A DNA stretch of 36,669 bases from Candidatus Collierbacteria bacterium RIFCSPLOWO2_01_FULL_50_23. GTDB lineage: Bacteria > Patescibacteriota > Microgenomatia > UBA1400 > MFAQ01. The notes under the pieces are model-generated. The model was not told the origin of the DNA. It saw only the letters and a program-made list of their open reading frames with translations, and did not search any database. Made by a program: the position numbers and the translations under genes. The first letter of the stretch is position 1; each line of letters begins with the position of its first letter. Shown piece after piece: positions 1,807-29,872 of this stretch. The stretch covers positions 65,488 to 102,156 of the forward strand of contig MFAI01000036.1 of assembly GCA_001774555.1 (NCBI GenBank), written 5' to 3'.

Positions 1807-3828
<2,022 letters not shown>

Positions 3829-4837: not shown

Positions 4838-7483
4838 ATGGACAACGAGGAAAAGAAACCACCAGTCGAAACCACCGAAGAGAGTCAGGTCGGCCAATCT
4901 TGGGAAACCGAGAAAACCAGCTATGGCTTGATCAAACCGGTCAAGATCATCGAGGAGATGGAGCGCTCCTACCTGGACTATGCCATGAGTGTTATCGTCG
5001 CTCGAGCCCTTCCCGATGTTCGCGATGGCCTGAAACCGGTTCACCGACGGATTCTTTTTGCCATGAAAGAAATGGGCCTGACCTACCGTTCGGCCTACAA
5101 AAAAAGTGCCCGCGTCGTCGGAGAAGTGTTGGGCAAATACCATCCCCACGGTGATCAGGCAGTTTACCAAACCATGGTCCGTTTGGCTCAGGACTTTTCC
5201 ATGCGCTATCAGCTCGTAGATGGTCAGGGCAACTTCGGTTCGGTTGACGGTGATTCGGCCGCTGCTATGCGTTACACCGAGGCGAGACTAAGTAAGATCG
5301 CCGAAGCCATACTCGAGGACATCGACAAAGACACTGTCGATTTTGTGGATAACTTCGACGGCAGCCAGAAAGAGCCATCTGTCCTCCCGGCAAAACTACC
5401 AAATCTTCTCTTGATGGGTTCCGATGGTATTGCCGTCGGTATGGCGACAAAGATCCCGCCTCACAACCTGAATGAAGTTGTCGCCGCCATCGCTACTTTA
5501 ATTGATAAAAGTACCATCACTGGAGCCGAAGAGTTCAAAGACGAGAGCCTCGAAACCATAGACAGCGCGAAGCTGGTCGGCAAGCTCGAGGCCAACATCG
5601 AAATTGATGAACTGGTCGAGCACATCAAGGGCCCGGATTTCCCCACCGCCGGCCAGATCTTCGACCAAAACGAAATCAAGAAGCTCTACCACACCGGCAA
5701 GGCCAACATCGTCAATCGGGGAGTCGCCGAAATTGTCGAAAAGAAAAGCGGCCGTTTCCAGATTGTTATCACCCAGCTACCATACCAAGTCAACAAAGCA
5801 AAGTTGATCACCCACATTGCCGATCTGGTCAAGAAAAAAAAGCTTGATGGTATTTCTGACCTCCGCGACGAATCGGACCGAAAGGGGATGACCGTCGTCG
5901 TCGAGCTCAAACGCGACGCCAAGCCAAAGAGCGTCCTCAACAATCTCTACAAACACACCGAACTTCAAAGCAGCTTTCCGGCGAATATGGTTGCCTTAAC
6001 CTCCGATGGCACTCCTCATTTACTCAACCTCAAGGTAATCCTGACCGAATATGTTCAACACCGTCAACACGTTATTGTCCGCAGAAGTCAGTTTGAATTG
6101 AAGGACGCCAAAGCCCGCGCCCACATTCTCGAGGGCTTACTCAAAGCCCTCGACGTCATCGACGAAGTCATCGACACCATCAAGAAGAGTGAAAGTACCG
6201 ATGCCGCCAGAATGAACCTGATGAACAAGTTTGGCTTTTCCGAACTCCAGACATTGGCTATTCTCGAGATGCAGCTTAAGAAACTGGCCCATCTCGAACG
6301 CGAGAAGCTTCAAAACGAATATGACGAACTCATGAAACGCGTCAAATTCCTCATCGCTGTTTTGAAAGACCCTCAAAAAGTGCTTCAAATAATCAAGGAT
6401 GAACTCAAGGGTTTGTCAGAAACTTACGGCGACGCCAGAAAGACCAAGGTTTACAAAAATGCCGTTGGCGAGTTCTCCGAAGAAGATCTTATCGCCAACG
6501 AGGAAACCATCATTACCCTCACCAAAACCGGCTATATCAAACGTATGCCGATTGATACTTTCAAGAGTCAGAGAAGGGGAGGCAAGGGTGTCGCCGGCAT
6601 GACCGTCAAGGATACCGACGAGGTAAACCTGCTCACCGCGGCCAACACCCACGACTCACTCCTGGTTTTTACCAGCAAAGGCAAGGTTTTCTCCCTAAAA
6701 ACCTGGGAACTGCCGGAGGGCAGCCGCATCAGCAAGGGTCAGGCGATCATCAATCTGATCAATATCGACACCGATGAAACGATCCAGTCACTCCTACCGG
6801 TCAGCAAGGAAGTTTTCGCCAGTAAAACTTTTCTTTTCTTCACCACGAAGAAAGGCACTGTCAAACGCACCAAAATAGGGGACTATCAAAATATCCGAAA
6901 CAACGGTCTCATCGCCTTGAAGCTCGAGGCGGGAGATCAGCTGGTCTGGGTAAACAAAACTATCGGCACCGACCACATTCTCCTGGTCACCAAGGAAGGT
7001 AAATCGATCAGGTTCCCGGAGGGGGACGTTCGTCCCACCGGCCGCGACACCATGGGTGTCCGAGGCATTCTGCTTGCCTCAGACGATTACGTTGTGGCTA
7101 TGAAGAGTTTTGACCCCAAAACCATCAGTGAGGATAAAAAGAAAAAAATCTTCACCGACCTCCTCATCGTCACCGAAAAAGGTATGGGCAAAAGAACCCC
7201 GCTAACTCAGTACCCCACCCAAAAGAGGGGAGGGCAGGGGGTCAAGGTCGCCGAGGTGACAGACAAAACCGGCCTGATCGCCAACGCCCTTTCCATCACC
7301 GAAAAAGACATCGAGCTCCTGATAACGACAAGGGAGGGCCAGGCCATCAAGCTCCCCATCAGGAATATTCCCCAGCTCCAGCGCTCCACCCAGGGAGTCA
7401 TCCTGATGCGCTTTGGCAAAACCGGAGACTTCGTCGCCGCCGTCGCCACCGTCTCCGAATCCGAAAAAGAAGAGAAAAAGTAG
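4838..7483 (+). CDS. gyrA: DNA gyrase subunit A
   Basis: [56 protein letters not shown], GyrA box [11 protein letters not shown] and C-terminal beta-pinwheel blades. Confidence 0.96.
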
Positions 7484-21045: not shown

Positions 21046-23637
21046 CTATCGCCGCCGGTCTGTTCCAAAAAATTTGATCTTCTCTCCCCTGAATGTCAGA
21101 CTGATTTGTGACAAAGGACCATTCCTGTGTTTGGAGATATTCAGTTTGTAGTCAGTCAGGTTGTTGTCATCGGGTTTGTAAAGAAACATGACCACGTCGG
21201 CATCCTGTTCGATACTGTTGTGAACAACCATATCATTGGCCAGGAAATTGGCGTGACCCGGAACAGTTGCATCAAAAACCTCCATCTCTCCACGATCAGT
21301 TATTTCCACTACTTCGTCCCAGTAAATATCCGAACTGGCCAAGTCGAAAAATCTCTTCTCTGGTAGAACTTGATGAATCTTCAAGAGGCGCTTCCGGCTT
21401 ATCCCACTATTGTGACGCTGTGTGCCACTATATGCCCAGTCCAGTCTTTTATGAAACTCCCTTGTTGTCAAACCCGCCCGACGCCTGGCGTCTTCTATCT
21501 CCCCCCAAACTTCCTTCGGCACGACGTCGTCGTTGGGATTCTCTGTTATTCCGCCCAGTAGTTTCATCGCCTCGATGGCCCTTCTCCCCTTCTCCCCCAC
21601 CACACCAACTAATTGTAAAAACTTAACCTGTTCGATCTTTCCTTGAACCACGGCTATCCACATATCCTCATTACCATTCTTCTTTGTGGACGTGACCCGC
21701 GCTCTGATCCCCAACCGCAACAACAGGTGCGCCACCTGCTCTATCAACTGTCGACTACCCGAAGCATAATAAATTCTTATCTTCGGTCCTTTTCCCTTTG
21801 AATTTATATGAACACAACCATCAGTAGACCACAGGTGTTTCAAAAACAAAGCTACTTTCTCTTTTGATTGGAGGAAAATTACTTCCGGAATTCGTTTCTC
21901 TCTAGACCTTTGATCAAAAATTCCCAGATCATCAAGCCATTTTACAATCGGGTTGCGTCGTCCCCTTGCCAATTTATAAACGGACGGTAGATACAAATGA
22001 TACCAATTTGATTGGGGCACGATCCGTGGCTTTATTGTAAATTCGGCAACAGCCGCCCGACGAACTATTTCGATCAGCTCCATTTCGGAGTTTGTATAGT
22101 GCAAGGGCTGATCGGCTAGATAGCAACCATCCCCAATAAGATGGGCCAAAACAACCAACCGGTTGTCACTAACCTGTCTCACGGTGTCACCCTTCCCGAC
22201 CACAACCTCTCTCGCCACACCGATGTGGTCACCCGCATTTAAGCGATCAAGTCTCGTCCACCCAGAAACTTTATAAAAAGGATGATTCGCCGACGCTCTT
22301 ATTATCCGCCCACTCTTAAGCTTCAGTTCGAAAATCCTTTTTTTACCACTCAAAAACGCTCTGCTAATCTTCGCTGGAACAAGTTTCATTTCATTATTCA
22401 TTGCCAAAACCGGAATATCCTTTTTACACACCAAGTCCCCAATTTTGACCCGCTCGCCAGTGTCTTGCCTGACAATTAAAGTATCTCCGGTTAGACAGCC
22501 GGACTCGCGTAAATCCGACAGTTGGGGAATCTTTTCACCACGACTCTCCACCGCACGGGATAGCTGTGACAAGGCAATCACTGGGATACGGAGCTCGCGC
22601 GCCAAGTTCTTCAAACCTTGCGAGATCGCACCCACTTCCTGGACTCGGCTTTCGTATCTACCATCCCCAACCGCGAGCTGGAGGTAGTCCACTACAAGTA
22701 GCTTAAGGCCCACTTCGGCATGAAGACGTCTTGCTTTGGTTCTCATCTGGAGAATAGTTTGCCCCGGCGTATCGTCGATAAAAAGCGGCGAATCGGCCAA
22801 AATACCCATCGCCTCTGACAACTTTTCAAAATCTTCCGGTTTGAGATTTCCTGTCTTCATCTTCCAGGCATCAATTCCCGCCTGCCCGACCAACATGCGG
22901 TCGACCAGTTCGAGATTACTCATTTCCAGAGAAAAAATACCTACCGGGATCTTCTTTTCTACCGCCGCGAACTGGGCAATGTTTGTTGCAAAAGCAGTCT
23001 TTCCGACGCCGGGACGGGCCGCCACAATGATTAGATTGCTATCCTGCAAACCAACCAGCACGTCATCCAAATCAGAAAAACCGGTAGGAACACCTCGGAG
23101 TCCTCCCTCCATCTTCTGCAATTCATCAAGTCGGTCAAAACTTTCAGCCAATGCTTCCTTGATCGGAATAAAGGAGCGTTTGATATTTTTCTGCGACAGC
23201 GAAAAAACTGCTCTTTCCGCCGTGTCCAGAATTGTCTCCAGATTGTTACTTTCATCAAAGGCCAATTCCCCCAACGTCCCCGCCGCCGAAATCATTTGCC
23301 TCTTGATGTAAGTCTCTTTTACCAAGGCTCCGTACTTGACGACATTGGCCGAAGTGGGAACTTCATTGGTCAACTCGGATAAATAAGCCATTCCACCCAC
23401 CCGAGTCAGTCCCTTCTCCTTCTTCAACCAATCAGAAACCGTAATTACGTCAATAGGATCGCGGTTTTCATACAAAGAAATCATCGCCGAATAGATCAGG
23501 CCGTGGTTTTCTCTATAGAACATTTCCGCCTTGAGTGACTCAGCTACCTCGACAATCGCATCCTTATCAATCAGAATCGCTCCCAGAACTGACTTTTCCG
23601 CTTCATCAGAATGTGGTGGAACTTTAAAGTTAGCCAT
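21046..23637 (-). CDS. dnaB: Replicative DNA helicase DnaB, intein-containing precursor
   Basis: PPHSDEAEKSVLGAIL, AARPGVGKTAFATNIA, SLEMSNLELVDRML, DYLQL, LSDLRESG|intein|SIEQDADVVMFLYK. Confidence 0.96.
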   Translation of the reverse strand: MANFKVPPHSDEAEKSVLGAILIDKDAIVEVAESLKAEMFYRENHGLIYSAMISLYENRDPIDVITVSDWLKKEKGLTRVGGMAYLSELTNEVPTSANVVKYGALVKETYIKRQMISAAGTLGELAFDESNNLETILDTAERAVFSLSQKNIKRSFIPIKEALAESFDRLDELQKMEGGLRGVPTGFSDLDDVLVGLQDSNLIIVAARPGVGKTAFATNIAQFAAVEKKIPVGIFSLEMSNLELVDRMLVGQAGIDAWKMKTGNLKPEDFEKLSEAMGILADSPLFIDDTPGQTILQMRTKARRLHAEVGLKLLVVDYLQLAVGDGRYESRVQEVGAISQGLKNLARELRIPVIALSQLSRAVESRGEKIPQLSDLRESGCLTGDTLIVRQDTGERVKIGDLVCKKDIPVLAMNNEMKLVPAKISRAFLSGKKRIFELKLKSGRIIRASANHPFYKVSGWTRLDRLNAGDHIGVAREVVVGKGDTVRQVSDNRLVVLAHLIGDGCYLADQPLHYTNSEMELIEIVRRAAVAEFTIKPRIVPQSNWYHLYLPSVYKLARGRRNPIVKWLDDLGIFDQRSREKRIPEVIFLQSKEKVALFLKHLWSTDGCVHINSKGKGPKIRIYYASGSRQLIEQVAHLLLRLGIRARVTSTKKNGNEDMWIAVVQGKIEQVKFLQLVGVVGEKGRRAIEAMKLLGGITENPNDDVVPKEVWGEIEDARRRAGLTTREFHKRLDWAYSGTQRHNSGISRKRLLKIHQVLPEKRFFDLASSDIYWDEVVEITDRGEMEVFDATVPGHANFLANDMVVHNSIEQDADVVMFLYKPDDNNLTDYKLNISKHRNGPLSQISLTFRGEKIKFFGTDRRR
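21217..22497 (-). mobile_element. DnaB intein with LAGLIDADG homing endonuclease domain (427 aa, C381-N807 of the precursor)
   Basis: CLTGDTLIV (block A), ASANHPFY (block B), LAHLIGDGCYL and FLKHLWSTDGCVHI (dodecapeptides), VFDATVPGHANFLANDMVVHN (F/G), +1 Ser; codons TGT 22497-22495 and AAC 21219-21217 checked. Confidence 0.95.
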
Positions 23638-25506: not shown

Positions 25507-25706
25507 AAAGCGTTACGAGCGGAGTCACGATCCGCAATGGGCTCGCCGAAGCGAAAGCGAAGGCGGCCACGCTTCCCGCCAAAATGCGGGACGGAAGCCA
25601 AACCGAACCAATCAGGCAGTCGATGTCGCACCTAGCGGAGTCGGCCCAAGAGTCTCGAAGAGAAATACTTCGAGGAAAGAAGATGGGACCGCGGGGGTCC
25701 TTTTTT
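25507..25706 (+). ncRNA. Probable T-box riboswitch leader (predicted tRNA-His-responsive)
   Basis: Predicted TSS begins at AAAGCGT, which can pair with ACGCTT (25569-25574). Stem III-like CTCGAAG..CTTCGAG is followed by TGGGACCGCG (T-box core UGGNACCGCG, N=G), overlapping hairpin GGACC..GGTCC + T6. hisS lies downstream. Confidence 0.7.
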
Positions 25707-25728
25707 ATTGGCCAAAACGCCATAGAGA

Positions 25729-25777
25729 GGCTCTCGTTCTTCAAAACGTTATTAGTTTTGGGGAACGGGAGCCTTTT
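25729..25777 (+). terminator. Second intrinsic terminator in the leader
   Basis: GGCTCTCGTTCTTCAAAAC-gttatta-GTTTTGGGGAACGGGAGCC followed by TTTTTT. Confidence 0.85.
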
Positions 25778-25801
25778 TTGTTCCCCGACCAATAAAAACA
25801 T

Positions 25802-26998
25802 ATGACCGAAAGACAAAACTGTAGGCCCGAAGTCAAAAAAAACGAGGCTCGGCCAAACTCGAGATATCTCATCTTGTCCGAAAATGGTTTTGGTGGGAAA
25901 AAATATCGTTTAGCGAAAAAATATCTAAAGTCATCGGGGAATACTACAGAGTCATGGGCAATCAAACGTGACGGCAACTGTTTCGTCACCCAAGTGACGA
26001 TATCAGGTGAAGCTGGCAGGCTGGATAAAATCACTACAAGAATCGGAAGTAAAAAAGTAAAAATTGCTATCTTCCAGCCAGCGAACGAGTCGGACTTCGC
26101 CTACTATCTTGAAAAAAGAAACCCGGTCAAAGACAAATTGCTATTTACCAGTCTCACTATCACCGAAGTCTCACCGGCAACGTATGCCGTTGGGACACTT
26201 AGAGAAAAGTTAAAGACTGAAACGGAGGTCAGTACTCCAACTAAAAAAATGCGGCAACTTCTGAAAGAAACCTCGTATTTACCTGTTCAGAATCTCGAAA
26301 CTATTCTTGCCAGACTCGAGGACTCCATCACCAGGAACCGACCTCTCCGCATCGGTTGTTTCGTCTGCCTCAATATGAAGTGTCTTCAATCTGGTGATAA
26401 ACCGGTTTACTTTGTTGGCCAAGAAAAAAACAGACTGGAGACCCCTAAAGTCTCCAAGCGGACGCGAGAAATTCTTTCAAAATTGGAAAATTCGGGCCTT
26501 AACTTCGCCTGGGATTTTCTGCTGGCAGATACCGATCCGCTGGATATTTACGACGAATGGCTCGGGCAACAAGAACTGGTCAAAGAAATAGGTAGGTATA
26601 AATCCAGGTTAGAGAAATCAATCGCTAGCCTATCCCCCAACACCTCAATCAAATCTTGGTCTGACGTTCAGGCTATGTTCCAAAAAAAATATCAGACAGA
26701 TTTTCAAAGGGCCTTTGAGACATGCGACCAGCTTGTAGGCACAGAATATATAGCTTCCAGTGCTAGACGCCGGCTTGCATATTTCACCGACAGGGTCGGG
26801 CTTCCCTATTCAGACGAGATCACCAAAATCTGTGAAACCACCGCCAAAAGAAATATCGCCCTCTATGCCGCTCAGGGACCGATTCTTTACGATTCATATG
26901 ATCTACTTGTAATTTCCGATCCCGATCCATCAAGACTTGGAAAGATCCAAAGCCTACTCTGTCCAAAATTACCAATCTGGTATCCCTTCCCGGGATAA
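25802..26998 (+). CDS. Unknown protein in the T-box/hisS operon (398 aa)
   Basis: Long ORF in the operon; NIALYAAQGPILYDSYDLLVISDPDPSRLGKIQSLL...PIWYPFPG. No family recognised. Confidence 0.75.
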   Translation: MTERQNCRPEVKKNEARPNSRYLILSENGFGGKKYRLAKKYLKSSGNTTESWAIKRDGNCFVTQVTISGEAGRLDKITTRIGSKKVKIAIFQPANESDFAYYLEKRNPVKDKLLFTSLTITEVSPATYAVGTLREKLKTETEVSTPTKKMRQLLKETSYLPVQNLETILARLEDSITRNRPLRIGCFVCLNMKCLQSGDKPVYFVGQEKNRLETPKVSKRTREILSKLENSGLNFAWDFLLADTDPLDIYDEWLGQQELVKEIGRYKSRLEKSIASLSPNTSIKSWSDVQAMFQKKYQTDFQRAFETCDQLVGTEYIASSARRRLAYFTDRVGLPYSDEITKICETTAKRNIALYAAQGPILYDSYDLLVISDPDPSRLGKIQSLLCPKLPIWYPFPG

Positions 26999-27004
26999 AA
27001 ACAA

Positions 27005-27721
27005 ATGACCAAAACACAGAAGTTCCTAAAAAACATTCAGGCAATATCCATCGCTCCACCGGAAAACATTATCCGCATTCTGGAGTTAATCGACAACAAT
27101 AAACCCATCACTTTTTTCAGTTGGAAAATGTTTGGGATCAAAATGACTCAGAAGGGTCTAATCGCCAACCCCAGTTTCGACACCGACGAAGCGGATAAAT
27201 ACATCATCAAAGAAAAGAATTTCATCAAGACCTTACTGAAATTAGAAATCAATTTCAAATACATCAAACTCATCCCCAACGAGCTACCCAAAGTATTCTT
27301 TGGTGTGAACCTCCCCAAAGAATCAACTAGTTTTGCGGTCAATGTCTCTCGCTACTTCAAGAAGATCTACCCCAAAACCAAAGTAATCAAATTGTCCGAG
27401 TTGCTTTCCAATCGCCCCCTCGCGTTAGTCTACCAAAAGGCGTTTGCCAAGGGACAGACCGAAAACATTGACCCAAAGAAATTTGCCAAGGAAAAACTTT
27501 CTCGGTCAACATATTACTCAGACGAACCTCTATCGAACGAAAAAGGGACAATCCTTGCCCAAAAAGCTTTCGGTCTTTTTTCCGCCGAAACCGCCATAAT
27601 TTTCAAATATATTACAAATCCTGTCTTGCTCGCGGGTGCAAGGTCAATAGATACTTACAAATACAAGTTTTCAAAATATCCCAAAGATCGACCAATATTA
27701 CCAATATTATTTGTTCTATAA
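27005..27721 (+). CDS. Unknown protein in the T-box/hisS operon (238 aa), possibly paralogous to the preceding ORF
   Basis: ORF between 25802-26998 and hisS; TAATGA coupling to hisS. Confidence 0.75.
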   Translation: MTKTQKFLKNIQAISIAPPENIIRILELIDNNKPITFFSWKMFGIKMTQKGLIANPSFDTDEADKYIIKEKNFIKTLLKLEINFKYIKLIPNELPKVFFGVNLPKESTSFAVNVSRYFKKIYPKTKVIKLSELLSNRPLALVYQKAFAKGQTENIDPKKFAKEKLSRSTYYSDEPLSNEKGTILAQKAFGLFSAETAIIFKYITNPVLLAGARSIDTYKYKFSKYPKDRPILPILFVL

Positions 27722-28968
27722 TGAAAAACATGGCCCAAAACAAAATTCAAACTCTCAAAGGCTTCCGGGACTTTCTCCCCGAGCAGGCCAAAAAAAGACA
27801 GTGGTTAACACGCAGAATTGAGGCTGTTTTTGAGCTCTGGGGCTATGACCCACTCGAAACCCCGACTCTCGAACCACTGGAGCTTTTTGCTGGTCAGATT
27901 GGTGAAGAGGAACAACTCTTCTTCAAATTCGAGGATAATGCCGGCCGTCAGGTCGCCCTCCGTTATGACCAAACCGTCCCCACTTGCCGCGTCGTCGGTC
28001 AATACGCTCAAGTGCTCCCCATGCCCTTTCGCCGCTACCAAATCCAGCCCGTCTTCCGGGCCGAAAAACCCCAAAAAGGCCGCTACCGTGAATTTACCCA
28101 GTGCGATGCGGATATCTTTGGAGTTGCCTCTCCCTTAGCCGACGCCGAGGTGATCGCCCTTTCTCTCGATATTTATCGCCGTCTTGGGTTTCCCAATGCG
28201 CTTGTCCTCGTCAATGACCGTTCGCTTCTTTCGGACCTCCCCTACAAGGCCATCGTCGCCATCGACAAACTGGAAAAAATCGGAGAAGCGGGTGTCATCA
28301 CAGAGATGATAGCCAAGGGTATCGACGAGACGACCGCCAGAGACTATCTGATCAAAGTCCGCGCCCTCACCCCGAATGAAACAATACGGATAATTTTTGA
28401 CTATCTGGACAAGTCCGGTTTTGACAGCTCTTGGTACAAATTCGAACCCACCCTGGCCCGCTCCTTTTCCTACTCAACCGGGCCCATCTGGGAAGTGAAG
28501 ATTCCGGGTTTTGATTCTGGTTCGGTTCTCGGTGGCGAACGCTACGACCAATTGGTCGAAAGGGTTTCGGGAATCAATGTTTCCGGTACCGGTTTCGGTC
28601 TTGGCTTTGATCGAACTCTGGAGGCAGCAGAACAGTTAGGGCTGATCCCCAGTTTCAAAACAGGCAGCCAAGTACTGATTTGTACCCTAGGCAAAGACAA
28701 CCTGAATCTCTCCCTGATACTGACCAGCGCCCTGCGCGATAATGGCGGCGTGAACACGGAAATCTACCCCGATCCGGAGGCAAAACTGGACAAGCAGTTA
28801 AAATACGCCAACAAGAAAGGCATCCCCTTCGTCGCTATCCTCGGCGAAAACGAAATCAAAAACCAGACCGTGACGGTGAAAAATATGGCCTCGGGGGAAC
28901 AAACAAGTTTGCCATTAGATAAGCCGGATGAACTCGCTGCCTATGTCCAAACACCACCTGTCCAATAA
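27721..28968 (+). CDS. hisS: Histidyl-tRNA synthetase
   Basis: GFRDFLPEQAKKRQWL, VALRYDQTVPTCRVV, PFRRYQIQPVFRAEKPQKGRYREFTQCDADIFG, GTGFGLGFDRTLEA. Confidence 0.96.
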   Translation: MKNMAQNKIQTLKGFRDFLPEQAKKRQWLTRRIEAVFELWGYDPLETPTLEPLELFAGQIGEEEQLFFKFEDNAGRQVALRYDQTVPTCRVVGQYAQVLPMPFRRYQIQPVFRAEKPQKGRYREFTQCDADIFGVASPLADAEVIALSLDIYRRLGFPNALVLVNDRSLLSDLPYKAIVAIDKLEKIGEAGVITEMIAKGIDETTARDYLIKVRALTPNETIRIIFDYLDKSGFDSSWYKFEPTLARSFSYSTGPIWEVKIPGFDSGSVLGGERYDQLVERVSGINVSGTGFGLGFDRTLEAAEQLGLIPSFKTGSQVLICTLGKDNLNLSLILTSALRDNGGVNTEIYPDPEAKLDKQLKYANKKGIPFVAILGENEIKNQTVTVKNMASGEQTSLPLDKPDELAAYVQTPPVQ

Positions 28969-29872
28969 TCGGTCAAAAGCCTATGCCCTTCTCCTCATAA
29001 ACACGATTTTATGGGGTCTATCTCCCCCGATCATCAAGGTGGCCCTAAATTTCGTCACCACCAATCAATTCCTCTTGGGACGCTATCTGCTTGCCAGTTT
29101 GATCTTCCTTCCCCTTTATTTCATCTTCCAAAACAAAGGTATCAAGCAGCTCCGCCAGGGAAACTGGCCCCTGCTTATCTTCCTAGCTCTGCTTGGCACC
29201 CCACTGACTTTGATTCCTCTTTACGAAGGCCTAAGGCTGACCAGTTCGATCGAGGCATCGATCCTCACTGCCACCGGTCCGCTCCTGGTAATTCTCGGCG
29301 GCCGTATATTTCTGAAAGAAAAGATCAGTCGAAATGAAGAAGTCGGCCTGATCATCGCCATTTTCGGCACTCTACTTCTTGCTTTTGAACCCATCTTTAA
29401 TAACGGTTCGGGAATAAAGTTCTCTCTGATCGGGAACCTGCTTATCTTGGGCAGTAACCTAATTTGGACCGCCTTCCTGCTTTTGGTCAAGAAACTCAAG
29501 ACCGACGCCAGTCAGATCAGTTTGGTCAGCTATCTCGTAAGTATCCCGGTTTTTGCCCTCCTGGTATTCTTTACACCTGTCTCAGTCGTGGCCAGGACCA
29601 ATATCGCCGCCCCTCTTGCCCTAATGGGTATCGTTTATATGGCCATTTTTGGTTCGGTGATCGCCTTCTGGGCCTACACCAAGGGACAGGAATACATCAA
29701 GGCCGGTGAGGCGGCAATCTTTACCTATCTCCAGCCACTCATCACTTTTCCCCTCGCCTATTTCTGGCTTGGCGAGACCCTTTCCGGCTCCAGCCTGCTG
29801 GCCTGCCTCCTGATCGCCACCGGTGTCTACTTCTCCGAATACCACGGCAAATCAAAATCGGCTATAATCTGA
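28943..29872 (+). CDS. EamA/DMT-family transporter
   Basis: 10-TM ORF with duplicated EamA pattern (LLINTILWGLSPPIIKVAL; SVIAFWAYTKGQEYIKAGEAAIFTYLQPLITFPLAYFWLGETL). Start at MSKHH. Confidence 0.88.
   Translation: MSKHHLSNNRSKAYALLLINTILWGLSPPIIKVALNFVTTNQFLLGRYLLASLIFLPLYFIFQNKGIKQLRQGNWPLLIFLALLGTPLTLIPLYEGLRLTSSIEASILTATGPLLVILGGRIFLKEKISRNEEVGLIIAIFGTLLLAFEPIFNNGSGIKFSLIGNLLILGSNLIWTAFLLLVKKLKTDASQISLVSYLVSIPVFALLVFFTPVSVVARTNIAAPLALMGIVYMAIFGSVIAFWAYTKGQEYIKAGEAAIFTYLQPLITFPLAYFWLGETLSGSSLLACLLIATGVYFSEYHGKSKSAII

Follow-up and report, generated by a model that had tools for sequence, protein, structure and literature searches.

Two diverged copies of a new protein family between a histidine T-box and hisS in a reduced-genome bacterium

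The locus

The window, a stretch of 36,669 nucleotides from a 0.75 Mb Candidatus Collierbacteria genome (G000, contig 36), contains an operon-like block in the order T-box, ORF1, ORF2, hisS, EamA transporter. Its features are as follows.

25519-25535, + strand: short hairpin resembling Stem I (GCGGA-GUCACGA-UCCGC), with a CAC (His) specifier at 25526-25528 in the apical loop
25679-25742, + strand: T-box antiterminator, with GAAGA at 25679-25683, UGGG bulge at 25684-25687 and AC at 25688-25689, pairing with GU-UCUUC at 25736-25742
25724-25779, + strand: intrinsic terminator; its 5' arm contains the 3' strand of the antiterminator
25802-26998, + strand: ORF1, 398 aa; N-terminal extension and C-terminal domain of the new family (residues ~145-398)
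27005-27721, + strand: ORF2, 238 aa; diverged paralogue of the ORF1 C-terminal domain, without the first-strand Cys
27721-28968, + strand: hisS, histidine--tRNA ligase (TIGR00442, E 2e-103, above cut-off)
28928-29872, + strand: EamA-family transporter, last gene of the conserved block (PF00892, E 8e-40)

The gap between ORF1 and ORF2 is 6 bases, and hisS is coupled to ORF2, its ATG overlapping the ORF2 stop codon (TAATG). A sequence-only reading had described two unrecognised proteins of 398 and 238 aa here; both frames were recovered at the coordinates above, with no significant family in Pfam, NCBIfam or PHROGs and no PDB sequence match. Scans of genome contigs, viral contigs and plasmids returned no relative. 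The further remark that the pair lacks transporter-like membrane segments agrees with hydropathy: the maximum over 19 residues is 1.03 for ORF1 and 1.22 for ORF2, against 2.42 for the EamA protein. The operon does include a transporter, as the EamA gene directly follows hisS; it does so in 22 of the 30 histidine T-box loci that have hisS, and the protein encoded at 28928-29872 is a candidate histidine transporter. Structure predictions made from the window proteins alone reached a pLDDT of 34-40 (ORF1 40, ORF2 35), too low for fold comparison. A HisZ-type identity was considered for the pair and rejected: the HisZ models match HisS alone.

Elsewhere in the window, a DnaB helicase of 863 aa (21046-23637, - strand) carries an intein, recognised by its N-terminal splicing region (TIGR01445, residues 381-455, E 1e-11); the DnaB of a related genome, G048, has 442 aa and no intein.

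A histidine-specific T-box

The T-box that had been proposed upstream of ORF1 is real, though missed by Rfam: it has a specifier hairpin, a UGGG bulge, a covarying antiterminator and a strong terminator, and an Rfam search of the window reported no T-box even at E values up to 5. Three leaders, compared with one another, share an antiterminator with a UGGG bulge and a covarying helix, and a terminator after it. The model built from them (R1) recognises such leaders in 26 of 380 genomes sampled from the phylum and in 45 of 351 sampled from the class; some of the weaker phylum matches are T-boxes of other specificity, with UGGU, upstream of arginine and other genes. In the 47 leaders collected, 98.2% of the cells of the antiterminator helix are paired, four pairs are changed on both sides, and there are 15 two-sided changes. 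The covariation score of this helix is 0.163, against 0.074 for shuffled alignments, and none of 500 shuffles scored as high. All 47 leaders have the UGGG bulge, the model itself having been built from UGGG leaders.

The specifier hairpin, GGAGUCACGAUCC, has a covarying stem and presents CAC in its loop. In 36 of 46 leaders the stem has at least five contiguous pairs, and the types of pair vary among them; 209 of 230 cells are paired, where shuffling gives a mean of 155 and a maximum of 173. The motif AGTCAC is present in 41 of the 47. The terminator region (25672-25782) folds at -52.6 kcal/mol (z -6.6), and terminator and antiterminator are mutually exclusive because of the strand that they share.

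The tRNA-His of the same genome (GTG anticodon) has C73, complementary to UGGG, with the caveat that C73 of tRNA-His can be paired inside the tRNA, as the T-box database paper points out (PMC7778990). The decisive point for specificity is context: all 47 leaders precede hisS (30) or hisG/hisD (20) within 6 kb. By these comparisons, the switch in the window is a histidine-specific T-box. It belongs to a compact class of histidine T-boxes, and the window example is one that the standard RNA model misses. A search of one literature library found no paper linking T-boxes with the phylum of these genomes.

A protein family in two diverged copies

ORF1 and ORF2 had been suspected of paralogy from a weak shared order of motifs. 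BLASTP and profile comparison place the relationship beyond chance: the two proteins match each other with E 2e-4 over ~215 residues; ORF2, combined with its G048 orthologue into a profile, matches the remaining members at 91% probability (hhalign, E 9e-7, 207 columns); and profiles of ORF1-type (G128, G480, G424) and ORF2-type (G128, G480) members match at 98% (E 7e-13, 232 columns). The paralogy is firm because homologues from other genomes support it. Some of the segment pairings first proposed by eye agree with these alignments (NRPLRIGCFVC with NKPITFFSWKM; ALYAAQGPIL with GLFSAETAII). As judged from the alignments, then, the two frames encode diverged members of a single protein family that had not been recognised before.

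The closest pair, in G048 (same class, another taxonomic family), has 384 and 220 aa, with ~41% identity to ORF1 and 46-50% to ORF2. The pair of G480, from another taxonomic family of the same phylum, has 423 and ~290 aa, and that of G128 has 367 and 291 aa. The protein family is very divergent: G480 and G382 share a genus, yet no match between them is among the best 25 pairwise BLASTP matches of all members. Membership is tentative for the second protein of G382 (E 0.03) and the first of G499 (E 0.002). Two further weak matches, L003 and L004, were excluded, their reading frames containing stops, and a protein search across seven genomes of the order of G480 gave no further member. Read off the alignments, the conserved elements are F.C at the end of the first strand, AD(T/N)D at the end of the second, the motifs W-S/E and Y..(E/Q)G, and LP.hYP at the C-terminus. 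The cysteine at the end of the first strand is present in most members and absent from ORF2 and its G048 orthologue.

Genomic context of the family

A survey of homologues near hisS or T-boxes gave a mixed answer. G048, G480, G128 and G382 repeat the order seen in the window, with T-box, pair and hisS, whereas in G499 a tandem pair lies between a yerC-like gene and hrcA (both named from sequence), with neither T-box nor hisS; a T-box first suspected upstream of that pair proved absent on inspection. The count is biased, in that five of the eight other loci came through the T-box model: G128 and G382, with pairs, and G424, G017 and G070, with single members. These five are not independent evidence of linkage, because they were found through the T-box. 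Searches with the proteins alone yielded three true homologous loci, and the order T-box, pair, hisS holds in two of them (G048, G480). In G017 and G070 the single member directly follows a histidine-racemase-like gene. The proposal that the pair has a role tied to His-tRNA or histidine metabolism is supported by the specificity of the T-box, the position of all collected leaders before hisS or hisG/hisD, and the recurrence of the pair in four other genomes; this recurrence in distant relatives points to an unrecognised step in how histidine is acquired or used.

In other genomes the slot between the histidine T-box and hisS holds nothing, hisG alone, peptidases of the M20, M29 or M15 families, or DapF-like proteins; complete his operons, too, can begin with a leader of this kind. 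In NCBIfam the DapF-like proteins match histidine racemases best (HisR 5e-27, CntK 3e-24), with scores that fall short of the equivalog cut-offs. Such genes lie under histidine T-boxes at L075 512-1342, L135 ~4984-5895 (- strand), L137 4090-4929 (- strand) and L154 313-1008; closeness to HisR/CntK was tested for L075 and L137, and in L075 and L135 the DapF-like gene directly precedes a member of the ORF1/ORF2 family. A 271-aa protein after the racemase-like gene of G017 was considered as CntL or nicotianamine synthase and set aside, with no NCBIfam or Pfam match.

The slot is not reserved for histidine supply, because the T-box operon of G117 has a HutH-like lyase in it and that of G225 an ATP-grasp-like protein (weak match). 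In G117 the lyase (L078 402-2063; PF00221, E 1e-170) and a threonine-synthase-like protein (2060-3100) precede hisS; a HutH-like aromatic amino acid lyase is an odd gene to find under a histidine-starvation switch. Another operon of this kind, L144, encodes a 420-aa protein (394-1656, reverse-complement coordinates), followed by a DUF917-like gene and one for an M29-like peptidase; the 420-aa protein gave no profile match to the ORF1/ORF2 family.

What might the pair do?

One way to approach the function of two proteins without annotated relatives is through the switch that controls them: a known switch indicates the purpose of its genes, and the pair is expected to act when histidine or His-tRNA runs short. 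The state of the host adds to this. None of the nine genomes that carry the family has hisD, the gene for histidinol dehydrogenase, and all three his-operon genomes tested do have it. Because several of the family-bearing genomes are incomplete, a single absence is weak evidence, but the overall pattern is clear. On gene content, the host bacterium cannot make histidine. The starting points that the sequences themselves provide are a new family, the paralogy of its two copies, the order of the operon, a T-box of defined specificity and the lack of hisD.

The best explanation, to which we give a probability of about 0.45, is that ORF1 and ORF2 are paralogous subunits of a histidine-supply enzyme, induced when tRNA-His is uncharged. 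That is, uncharged tRNA-His would pair at two sites, the CAC specifier and the UGGG bulge, and hold the antiterminator, so that transcription proceeds; ORF1 and ORF2 would be co-expressed with HisRS and the EamA transporter; the two proteins would act jointly, probably as a heteromer in which the ORF1 copy carries the likely catalytic cysteine; the pair would yield histidine from some precursor, taken from outside or present in the cell, such as modified, D- or peptide-bound histidine; and HisRS would meanwhile recharge tRNA-His. We infer a part in supply because T-boxes turn on when the cognate tRNA is uncharged (PMC7778990) and because the occupants of the slot that can be identified mostly produce histidine or set it free. 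A supply role for the cargo, the union of the two copies in one enzyme and a part for the cysteine in it are suggestions from context, and the fold, active site and heteromeric state are likewise conjectural. Several points count against supply: ORF1 and ORF2 have no established fold or catalytic motif of a known kind, the G499 pair stands apart from T-box and hisS, the slot has the other occupants seen in G117 and G225, and the synteny count is biased.

A second perspective supposes that the pair consumes His-tRNA. In this account it would be an enzyme like the cyclodipeptide synthases (CDPSs), Rossmann proteins related to class-I synthetases, converting His-tRNA to a histidine-containing product that is perhaps exported by EamA; the T-box would raise HisRS as the enzyme drains charged tRNA-His. 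We regard this, the main rival, as unlikely. The family profile does show a weak similarity to the CDPS profile, with E ~0.001 over 72-115 columns, in a register that is consistent between subfamilies and with E 0.0003-0.005 in every leave-one-out; the controls all score worse (eight other families, best 0.051; a reversed profile, 0.27; 100 column shuffles, best 0.094). However, the probability of the alignment is 42% at most, and it covers the strands and helices of the centre without reaching the catalytic Ser or Glu: Ser37, Tyr178, Glu182 and Tyr202 of CDPS all fall outside the reliably aligned region, and what most members have by eye is the Cys and Y..(E/Q)G. A cysteine ends the first strand in most members and ORF2 has none, which also sits poorly with a CDPS; the PF16715 HMM matches neither ORF1, ORF2 nor the homologues; and switching on a consumer of His-tRNA when histidine charging is low would be paradoxical. 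No CDPS gene was detected in the genome of the window. The family is not classed here as CDPS, and the lead is worth testing because a CDPS from Parcubacteria uses His-tRNA (PMC7613923).

A narrower form of the same idea is decidedly unlikely: a two-subunit distant relative of CDPS, with Cys replacing the Ser nucleophile, acting on His-tRNA under control of the T-box for that very tRNA, in bacteria with reduced genomes and histidine auxotrophy. If true, the tRNA that serves such an enzyme as substrate would also regulate it. The phylum also contains a 227-aa, strongly diverged CDPS-like protein (L098 1438-2121; PF16715, E 5e-5; hhalign 88% to CDPS), possibly an intermediate between CDPS and other families.

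A third account makes the pair an accessory factor of HisRS or tRNA-His, serving in processing, editing or synthetase stabilisation and co-expressed with HisS as its working partner. The direct coupling of hisS to ORF2 in the window suits this, as does the position of the family shortly upstream of hisS in other T-box loci that have it. Yet a HisRS partner would be expected to be more universal, and most genomes of the class with a histidine T-box and hisS are without the family; other genes intervene between family member and hisS in G070, G017 and G128, and the G499 pair is not near hisS. We judge it unlikely. Identity with the isocyanide synthases (DIT1/PvcA), suggested by the C-terminal pattern FP.AI.L....P....K......LP/TPWH, is highly improbable: it has in its favour a by-eye similarity of the second G128 protein to PvcA (PDB 3e59); against it, PF05141 has no hit in nine genomes even with E values as high as 10, and profile comparisons give inconsistent registers and a best E of 0.055.

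The pair and its switch offer a testable handle on how reduced-genome bacteria without a histidine pathway obtain or use histidine.

Comparison with known systems

The switch shares with transcriptional T-box riboswitches the specifier, the UGGN bulge, the antiterminator, the mutually exclusive terminator and a position upstream of aminoacyl-tRNA synthetase or amino-acid genes; it differs in that the specifier sits in the 7-nt apical loop of a 5-bp hairpin. A short Stem I with an apical specifier has been described mostly for translational T-boxes (PMC7583486). The short Stem I is alike there, but the expression platform here is a terminator.

Among proteins, the likeness to DIT1/PvcA (PF05141) is a superficial one of C-terminal motif order, with no significant profile match. 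Relatives of the histidine racemases HisR (Fusobacterium) and CntK, of the DapF fold, share the operon slot and directly precede a family member in G017 and G070, but they are another protein family, and neither ORF1 nor ORF2 matches them. With CDPS (PF16715) the family has in common a similar order of central elements (a helix, a hydrophobic strand ending AD/PD, a helix, and a strand with W-S/E-D/E), a similar domain size and a possible link to His-tRNA. It differs in having no PF16715 match and no catalytic Ser, Tyr or Glu detectable within the reliably aligned region, and in its arrangement as tandem paralogues under T-box control.
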